A model generated the notes under the pieces. It was not told the origin of the DNA. It ran no database searches and worked only from the letters and a program-made list of their open reading frames with translations. From NCBI GenBank assembly GCA_016209155.1, contig JACQWU010000029.1, positions 8,165 through 15,644 on the forward strand: a stretch of 7,480 bases of DNA, in the 5' to 3' direction. A program made the translations under genes and the position numbers. Shown here piece by piece: positions 1 through 2,510 of this stretch (positions are counted from its first letter, which is position 1; every line of letters starts with the position of its first letter). The DNA comes from Candidatus Desantisiibacteriota bacterium. GTDB lineage: Bacteria > JACRDZ01.

Positions 1-224
1 TTCAAAAAAATTTCGGTGAATCGGAGGCAATAGGTGAGATTGACAGGAATATTCTAAATGTTAACGGCGGCGCAATAGCTCTCGGTCATCCTGTCGGAGC
101 AACAGGAGCAAGAATGATCTTTACGCTTCTTAAGGAAATGGAAAAAAGAAACCTGCAGCTCGGCCTTGCCAGCTTATGCATAGGAGGCGGACAGGGCGCC
201 GCTCTTTTATTTGAACGAACGTAA
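1..224 (+). CDS. Thiolase (acetyl-CoA acyltransferase), C-terminal end
   Basis: This is the last 73 codons of a thiolase; the 5' part lies outside the window, and the first complete codon starts at base 3. Thiolases cleave 3-ketoacyl-CoA with CoA to give acetyl-CoA and a shortened acyl-CoA, or run the reverse condensation. Two family signatures are visible: [19 protein letters not shown], with the catalytic His at bases 87-89, and CIGGGQG, with the catalytic Cys at bases 177-179. The protein ends six residues after the usual GAALL strand, a normal thiolase length at the C-terminus. The fadJ homologue follows on the same strand, so this is most likely the beta-oxidation thiolase (FadA/FadI role). 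The visible part alone cannot exclude a biosynthetic acetoacetyl-CoA thiolase. Confidence 0.95.
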
Positions 225-235
225 GTTAATTTTTG

Positions 236-352
236 TGTAGGGCATGGCTTTAGCCATGCGGTTCGGGGAATTAGCAAAATATAAGGTGATTAAATTAATG
301 TTCAATTGAATAATAAGATATAATAAAAGCAAGCCTAAAGACTTGCCCTACA
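236..352. repeat. REP/BIME-like element: two inverted GTAG-hairpins
   Basis: Two 24-base inverted ends (236-259 and 329-352) match at 20 of 24 positions. Each starts TGTAGGGCA and folds into its own hairpin with a 7-bp stem and TTTA loop. The left stem is GCATGGC/GCCATGC (242-248 with 253-259). The right one, read on the minus strand, is GCAAGTC/GGCTTGC. A GTAG tetranucleotide lies just 5' of each hairpin (237-240; complement of 348-351). This is the layout of REP sequences recognised by RAYT transposases, and a pair of inverted REPs is a BIME. All four differences between the arms fall in two stem pairs and keep pairing (T-A to A-T, G-C to T-G). No clear target duplication is visible and no transposase is present, so mobility is inferred. 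A MITE with structured ends is the alternative. Confidence 0.6.
295..324 (+). promoter_or_regulatory. Possible fadJ promoter inside the repeat element
   Basis: A perfect TATAAT at 319-324 sits 18 bases after a weak -35-like TTAATG (295-300). Transcription would begin near 331, within the right-hand hairpin, leaving a leader of about 60 bases before the fadJ start. The -35 match is poor and the region is AT-rich, so chance is a real alternative. Confidence 0.3.
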
Positions 353-389: not shown

Positions 390-2510
390 ATGGCAGCATT
401 TAATCTGGATAAGAGTTCCGAAGGTGTTTATTATATAGTTTTTGATACTCCGGACAAAAAAGTTAATGTGCTGGATATGACAGTTATGGATGAACTATCT
501 CAGATTCTTAAACAAATCATGCAGGATGAAAATGCTAAAGGTGTTATTTTTATAAGCGGGAAGAAAAATATTTTTATTGCCGGTGCTGATATTTCAGTTA
601 TTAAAAATATTAAAAATAAGCAGGATGGAGTTAATCTTTCAAAAAAAGGGAGAGAAATATTAAGACATATAGAGAATTTAAACATACCGTCAATAGCCGC
701 AATTAACGGGGCATGTCTTGGCGGAGGAATGGAACTTGCATTATTCTGCAGTTACAGAATAGGAACAGATAATCCTTCAACTAAATTTGGTTTGCCGGAA
801 GTTTCACTTGGCGTTTTACCCGGTTTTGGCGGAACACAACTGCTGCCGAAACTTATTGGCATTAGATCCGCAATTGCCATGATTATTTCCGGAAAAAAAT
901 TTGATTCAAAACGCGCGCAAAAAATAGGGCTTATTGATAAAATGGTGCCGGAGACTTTACTAAAAGAAAATGCAGAGCAATTTTTAAATTATGTATTAAC
1001 ACCAAAAGGTAAAATGGAAATTGAGAAAAAAAGAAAAGCGAAAAAGAATTTTTTTCTTGAAGGTAATTTTATCGGACAAAGTCTTATTTTCAGAGAAGCG
1101 CATAAGCAAATTTTAAATAAAACCGGCGGCAATTATCCCGCGCCGGTTTCTGCTTTAAGTGCTATAAAAGGCGGATTTAGTCTTTCCCCTGAAGCAGCGC
1201 TTGATATGGAATCGGAAATGTTCGGCGCAATGGCAATAACACCGGTTTGTAAAAATTTAATAGATGTATACTACTGGAGTGAAAAAGCTAAAAAAGCGGG
1301 GAAAAAGGAAAATATAAAAGCAATTGCCAAAGCGGGAGTTTTGGGAGCTGGAGTTATGGGCGGCGGTATAGCACAGCTTATAAGCGCTAAAAAGCTTGAT
1401 GTCCGTATGAAAGATATTAAAAAGGAAGCTATTCTGGCAGGCTTTGCATCTGCATGGAAAGTTTATCAGGGAGCCATAGAGCGTAAAAAAATTACCAAAG
1501 ATGAAGCGGAAAAGAACATGCTTTATATTTCTCCCGCACTTGATTATACCGGGTTTGGAAAACTTGATATCGTCATCGAAGCAGTTGTTGAAGATATGGA
1601 GATAAAGAAAAAAGTATTTCAGGAATTAGAAGGAAATATATCTCCAGATACTATTATCGCAAGCAATACTTCTTCTATTTCAATCAGTAAAATGGCTTCT
1701 GTGCTTAAGCATCCCGAAAGATTTATTGGACTCCATTTTTTTAATCCTGTACATCTTATGCCTTTAATTGAAATTATTCCCGGAGATAAAACAGATGAAA
1801 AAACTCTAAACACGGTTATTGATTTTGCCATTAGTTTAGGGAAAATGCCTGTTGTTGTAAAAGACAGGGAAGGATTTCTGGTTAACCGCATATTGATGCC
1901 ATATCTAAATGAAGCAGGTAAACTACTCAATGAAGGTGTATCAATAGAAATGATTGACAGGTGCGCTAAAAAATTTGGTATGCCAATGGGTCCGCTTGAA
2001 CTTATGGATGAGATCGGGATAGATGTCGGGCATAAAGTGGCGCTAATTATGGAAAGTGCTTTTGGCAAACGAATGCAGGTATCAAATATTTTAAATAAGA
2101 TTTATGAGGATAAACGCTTTGGTAAAAAAGTAAAAAAAGGTTTTTATATTCACACCGGAAAAACTAAAATCCCTGACCAGAAATATATAGATAAGATAAG
2201 ACAAAATACAATCGTGCAGGCTATGGATGAAGAAGAAGTCCTAAGCAGGATACTAATGATAATGATAAATGAATCAGCGCTTTGTCTTGAAGAAAATATT
2301 GCCGCAAGCGCCGGAGAACTTGATTTTGCTTTAATAATGGGAATTGGTTTTCCTGCTTTTCGCGGCGGAGTTTTAAAATTCGCAGATACTATTGGCTCAG
2401 AAAAAATTTACAAGCAATTAAAAGATTTTGAACAAAAATACGGTGTATCTTTTGCCCCGTCAGAAAAATTAAAGCTTATGAGTTTGAAAAATGAAGCTTT
2501 TTATCTGTAA
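390..2510 (+). CDS. fadJ: FadJ-type enoyl-CoA hydratase / 3-hydroxyacyl-CoA dehydrogenase
   Basis: This 706-residue bifunctional enzyme hydrates trans-2-enoyl-CoA and oxidises the L-3-hydroxyacyl-CoA with NAD+ in fatty-acid beta-oxidation. It is expected in the cytoplasm, in complex with a thiolase. The N-terminal crotonase domain (about 1-190) shows FIAGADI (62-68), ACLGGGMELAL with catalytic Glu115, and GLPEVSLGVLPGFGGT with catalytic Glu137. A linker containing GNYPAP follows. The Rossmann domain begins at GVLGAGVMGGGIA (317-329), and GLHFFNPV places the catalytic His at 449 with partner Glu461. Two C-terminal dehydrogenase domains follow, with GFLVNR (495-500) and GIGFPAFRGG (651-660). 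Length, GNYPA and the C-terminal YGVSFAPSEKL pattern fit FadJ better than FadB. The start has a GAGG at 378-381, eight bases upstream. The thiolase gene ends 165 bases before it on the same strand, so cotranscription is possible despite the intervening element. No key residue is missing. Confidence 0.95.
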   Translation: MAAFNLDKSSEGVYYIVFDTPDKKVNVLDMTVMDELSQILKQIMQDENAKGVIFISGKKNIFIAGADISVIKNIKNKQDGVNLSKKGREILRHIENLNIPSIAAINGACLGGGMELALFCSYRIGTDNPSTKFGLPEVSLGVLPGFGGTQLLPKLIGIRSAIAMIISGKKFDSKRAQKIGLIDKMVPETLLKENAEQFLNYVLTPKGKMEIEKKRKAKKNFFLEGNFIGQSLIFREAHKQILNKTGGNYPAPVSALSAIKGGFSLSPEAALDMESEMFGAMAITPVCKNLIDVYYWSEKAKKAGKKENIKAIAKAGVLGAGVMGGGIAQLISAKKLDVRMKDIKKEAILAGFASAWKVYQGAIERKKITKDEAEKNMLYISPALDYTGFGKLDIVIEAVVEDMEIKKKVFQELEGNISPDTIIASNTSSISISKMASVLKHPERFIGLHFFNPVHLMPLIEIIPGDKTDEKTLNTVIDFAISLGKMPVVVKDREGFLVNRILMPYLNEAGKLLNEGVSIEMIDRCAKKFGMPMGPLELMDEIGIDVGHKVALIMESAFGKRMQVSNILNKIYEDKRFGKKVKKGFYIHTGKTKIPDQKYIDKIRQNTIVQAMDEEEVLSRILMIMINESALCLEENIAASAGELDFALIMGIGFPAFRGGVLKFADTIGSEKIYKQLKDFEQKYGVSFAPSEKLKLMSLKNEAFYL

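Follow-up and report, generated by a model that had tools for sequence, protein, structure and literature searches.

The window, by which we mean the whole stretch of 7,480 nucleotides that was analysed (G000:C263:8165-15644), belongs to a fragmented host assembly of 3.08 Mb in 352 contigs which is 79% complete. Near its start a gap of 165 bp is flanked by two co-directional beta-oxidation genes. Upstream lies the 3′ end of a thiolase-like gene (3..224, plus strand, frame 3, stop codon at 222-224), named from its C-terminal motif and by the earlier note on this DNA, and downstream on the same strand lies a gene for a FadJ-type enoyl-CoA hydratase/3-hydroxyacyl-CoA dehydrogenase (390..2510) with ECH_1, 3HCDH_N and 3HCDH domains. 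The gap holds two hairpins in inverted orientation. The first, REP subtype 1 (236..259, plus strand), has its GTAG at 237-240, a spacer G at 241, a stem at 242-248/253-259 and a TTTA loop at 249-252. The second, an inverted REP of subtype 2 (329..352, minus strand), has the complement of GTAG at 348-351, the spacer at 347, a stem with one T-G wobble at 340-346/329-335 and a minus-strand TTTA loop at 336-339. The linker between them (260..328) is 69 nt long and falls inside the 20-100 bp that is usual in REP dimers (PMC3733652). The doublet starts 11 bp past the thiolase-like stop and ends 37 bp ahead of the FadJ-type start. Within the phylum, the closest relatives of fadJ show 42% identity over part of the protein only, and their neighbourhood is not comparable for an empty-site test. 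The GSDH-like, radical-SAM and subtilase genes of the window were considered and have no relation to the hairpins.

The left arm (236-259, plus strand; TGTAGGGCATGGCTTTAGCCATGC) and the right arm (352-329, minus strand; TGTAGGGCAAGTCTTTAGGCTTGC) are each 24 bases long and consist of TGTAG, one G and a 7-bp stem closed by the TTTA loop. They mismatch at positions 10, 12, 19 and 21, which make up stem pairs 10:21 (T-A versus A-T) and 12:19 (G-C versus T-G), and the arm comparison thus confirmed exactly the observation of the earlier note that the four differences form two stem pairs in which pairing is kept. The same note took this as covariation within one locus. The arm-to-arm compensation is real, but it is slightly overstated in that claim since the arms come from two standing hairpin subtypes and their differences partly reflect these. 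Compared with the genome-wide consensus GCAAGGC/GCCTTGC the left arm carries a private two-sided swap from A-T to T-A, and compared with the consensus GCAAGCC/GGCTTGC the right arm carries a private one-sided change from C-G to T-G. Judged from these consensus sequences, the G-C versus C-G contrast at pair 12:19 already separates the two subtypes and did not arise at this locus.

The pattern TGTAGGGCANNNNTTTANNNNTGC, with up to three mismatches allowed, matches twice in the 7,480-base window, while dinucleotide shuffles of the window (n=200) gave a mean of 0.10 matches and never two. Folded alone as DNA, the left arm adopts the structure described above at -7.5 kcal/mol, which was equalled by none of 200 shuffles. 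The right arm is less stable because of the T-G wobble in its stem, and its -4.0 kcal/mol, equalled by 6 of 200 shuffles, is of marginal stability. In the fold of the full 117-nt stretch as single-stranded DNA, arm-to-arm pairing is preferred, and a long stem therefore competes with the local hairpins.

The hairpin, which the earlier note supposed to be mobile in the genome, is not single-copy. The host genome carries it at about 60 sites, and three other genomes of the phylum are almost free of it. With up to two mismatches the hairpin pattern gave 40 genome matches against 1 for a reversed-pattern control, and a covariance model based on 26 distinct copies gave 64 host-genome matches at E≤1 but 0, 0 and 2 weak matches (E 0.2) in the three other genomes. 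Both of these searches had been proposed in that note, and both agree with the REP reading. Many copies form inverted, head-to-head pairs whose GTAG boxes lie outermost, as in the window, further examples being those on contigs C115, C125, C145, C171 and C199; others are single. The GTAG foot is invariant in the 26 distinct copies and is found in 41 of 43 once those of other organisms are added. The loop reads T-T-N-A in 60 of the 61 genome copies, T14 and A17 being invariant, T15 nearly so and position 16 free. C145 carries an almost unchanged duplication of a segment, 107 bp or more in length, that comprises a whole hairpin pair with its flanks; the two copies are offset by 225 bp (L030:1-107 and 226-332), and the start of the contig falls within the first of them.

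The copies lie preferentially between genes: 55 of the 61 full-length copies are outside open reading frames of at least 100 aa, though such frames cover 81% of the fetched DNA. This distribution bears on the possibility that the hairpins mainly constitute an RNA element of the thiolase-fadJ transcript, such as an mRNA stabiliser, a processing site or an attenuator, and that pairing has been kept for that function and not for transposition. The close position of the doublet between two genes on the same strand would be in keeping with such a role, as would the presence of G-U compatible changes and the numbers of intergenic copies between co-directional genes (18 of 55 between plus-strand and 13 of 55 between minus-strand genes), and secondary roles of this kind are known for REPs of other bacteria (PMC3733652). 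The remaining copies, however, include some between divergent and convergent gene pairs and in unrelated contexts, and the left hairpin is without a T-run after it on the coding strand. A role in RNA would also leave the invariant GTAG, the letters of the TTNA loop and the flanking RAYT genes described below unexplained, and we consider it unlikely to be the main function of the hairpins.

Stem pairing is conserved across the copies. In the 26 distinct copies 96.2% of stem cells are paired versus 81.2% in shuffles, and two-sided compensated changes are seen in five of the seven stem pairs. The covariation score of 0.392, against 0.120 in shuffles, was reached by 0 of 500 shuffles, a comparison in which relatedness alone can also beat shuffles. 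We do not put the covariation down to relatedness since the score is far lower, and the signal is lost, when the stem register is slid by 1-3 bases, which keeps the relatedness. With the addition of RAYT-flanking hairpins of other organisms and of a sister hairpin type, 97.2% were paired and the score was 0.504 versus 0.162 (0 of 500 shuffles). It is well established that template switching in replication corrects short palindromes (quasipalindrome correction), and a single such event yields changes on both sides of a stem. Since this repair could make the compensated changes without any selection for recognition of the hairpin, covariation alone is no proof of recognition. Wobble pairs and subtype differences nevertheless persist in the stems, and the GTAG foot and the loop, in which pairing is not needed, are as conserved as the stem. 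We therefore give template switching a rather low probability as the source of the compensation; it is moreover compatible with a REP and would weaken the covariation argument only.

The earlier note had also looked to a Y1-family transposase with the same hairpin at its flanks, and such genes were found. A PF01797 profile search of the genome returned six Y1 genes, and a RAYT query added more. The protein P0001 (C349:17963-18433, 156 aa) passes the REP-associated tyrosine transposase equivalog NF047646 with 98.5 bits against a cut-off of 80, and it matches E. coli TnpAREP (4ER8). It has an HVH motif and a YI..NP motif with the tyrosine Y126, and it keeps W, Q, E, H and R at positions that touch GTAG in the E. 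coli protein. Hairpins of the window type lie on both sides of this gene, at 17838-17898 and 18452-18505. A second RAYT on C265, truncated by the contig end and 50-53% identical, has a hairpin pair of the sister type (GTAGTGCGAGAC type; GTAGT-GCGAGAC-TT(T/C)A) starting about 25 bp past its stop. Each of these two related RAYTs thus adjoins a hairpin type of its own, and copies of either type are scattered over the genome. The Y1 genes on C314, C146 and C199 were rejected as partners, having no GTAG hairpins at their flanks. Short non-autonomous inverted elements are also known among MITE families, and the window feature might in principle be not a REP but a MITE belonging to an insertion sequence of the classical DDE or the IS200/IS605 type. 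The copies listed show no evident longer terminal repeats in common apart from the hairpins, however, and the hairpin-flanked protein P0001, which passes the RAYT cut-off, fails that of the IS200/IS605 model (28.6 bits, cut-off 55), so that a MITE is very improbable.

Relatives of P0001 were sought in one genome from each species, and three close ones were found, in metagenome-assembled genomes (MAGs) labelled Actinomycetes (L067, 63%), Syntrophaceae UBA1163 (L068, 60%) and Deltaproteobacteria RIFCSPHIGHO2_02_FULL_43_33 (L069, 68%). In each of them, hairpins matching the model lie on either side of the RAYT. The flanking hairpin of L067 and L068 is an identical 24-mer, and that of L069 is GCAGGGC/GCCCTGC, a compensated version with A-T changed to G-C. 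Identical 24-mers accompany RAYTs that are just 60-63% identical. Blocks of at least 40 identical bases recur in a permuted order at the two ends of the L067 RAYT locus. The final codons of the RAYT gene are part of the upstream block, and in this single case the arrangement would fit copying via a circle or a tandem. One may tentatively suggest that RAYT and hairpins travel as a unit between distant lineages, the hairpin being conserved more than the transposase and the permuted ends of L067 being as expected of a circular or tandem REPtron intermediate, but we hold this to be somewhat doubtful. The distribution of TnpAREP is known to be patchy and horizontally spread (PMC6006769). The RAYT gene of the MAG labelled Deltaproteobacteria contains, in its 5′ portion, several hairpins along with truncated hairpin repeats (L069:1384-1826).

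Systems of REPs and RAYTs have been well studied mainly in Proteobacteria. The E. coli REP/BIME and TnpAREP (4ER8) share with the present system the GTAG foot, the inverted pairs and a RAYT with HUH and one tyrosine, but the E. coli stems are long and bulged whereas the window-type stems are short perfect palindromes. A perfect short palindromic stem is also found in REPtron Mb of Marinomonas sp. MWYL1 (a group 3 TnpAREP with its REP; PMC8266576), and in both systems a short spacer lies between GTAG and the stem. They further have in common the TTTA loop with its T-T-N-A rule and a cognate RAYT, here a putative one. Stem and spacer are 5 bp and 2 nt in Marinomonas versus 7 bp and 1 nt here, and a further difference from Marinomonas is that P0001 has retained the E of E. 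coli TnpAREP at GTAG-contact position 100. With the Marinomonas REP in vitro the loop bases T12, T13 and A15 were required and position 14 was free (PMC8266576), and the genome-wide T-T-N-A rule observed here is the rule measured for that REPMb. Judged by its described architecture, the window feature also resembles the GTAG-tagged REP superfamily of 24 families (PMC3733652), with which it shares the GTAG foot, a 6-9 bp stem, a 2-4 nt loop, head-to-head dimers 20-100 bp apart, intergenic location, compensated stem subtypes and repeat-specific RAYTs. GTAG REPs of that architecture are known from many bacteria (PMC3733652).

Every testable defining feature of a REP doublet was found in the window feature, which is therefore assigned to a known kind, the REP doublet of a GTAG-type REPtron. 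The copy number, the covariation and the RAYT flanked by the same hairpins support the REP assignment made in the earlier note, and we are highly confident that the feature is a REP doublet, that is a head-to-head, REPIN-like dimer, of the GTAG-tagged superfamily and a small non-autonomous element. The single-strand transposase that probably spreads the hairpins is encoded elsewhere in the same genome, where hairpins of this type flank it. In the mechanism we propose from the sequence, each hairpin would fold with its GTAG foot when the DNA is single-stranded, e.g. in the lagging-strand template. A RAYT (TnpAREP, a Y1 HUH endonuclease) encoded elsewhere would bind foot, stem and TTNA loop, cut at a nearby dinucleotide and rejoin the strands, by which the doublet would be copied or moved. 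The spread of the hairpins and the past arrival of the window copy may both be due to such binding and cutting of single strands. The window doublet is probably old, to judge from its weakened right arm and from a linker longer than that of the consensus pairs. The system represents a clean case, with two sister RAYTs each beside its own hairpin type, from a sparsely sampled phylum (four species in the comparison set), and the cross-lineage co-variation predicts stem and loop letters that are read by the transposase, a prediction testable in the Marinomonas-protein assay.

By inspection, roughly half of the subtype-1 hairpins carry AATC(A/C/T) on their 3′ side, e.g. at C125:6904, C133:2224 and C153:7323. 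This places CA or CT about 4 nt past the stem, and these are the dinucleotides cut by the Marinomonas enzyme.

Six further RAYT-like genes were observed in the host genome, one on each of the stretches C186:19500-21900 (L064), C257:1-1700 (L065), C165:11500-13608 (L062), C106:5000-12000 (L036), C89:4088-7321 (L015) and C208:1-1900 (L063). Five of them adjoin or sit inside restriction-modification genes and the sixth adjoins RhuM. On C186 the order is HsdM-RAYT-HsdS, the gene on C257 adjoins HsdR, those on C165 and C106 adjoin N6/N4 methylases, and that on C89 lies within an N6 methylase reading frame. Such a restriction-modification neighbourhood was not found at the RAYT loci of the scanned relatives. 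On C89 the RAYT and its hairpins share one unbroken frame of 367 codons (L015:1045-2145, minus strand), with an N6 methylase segment N-terminal of the RAYT and methylase-like sequence C-terminal of it; the hairpin type of this locus, GTAGGTCAGACATTCCTGTCTGAC, has 16 genome matches. The C106 hairpin, GTAGGGAACGGTTTCAAACCGTTCC, has 10. In the RAYTs at L036:3440-3994 (minus strand), L062:918-1364 (plus strand), L063:258-872 (minus strand) and L064:775-1407 (minus strand), the HUH part is separated from the tyrosine part by in-frame insertions of hairpin sequence or repeats, and insertion at this position is known for TnpAREP subclass 2.4 (PMC6006769).
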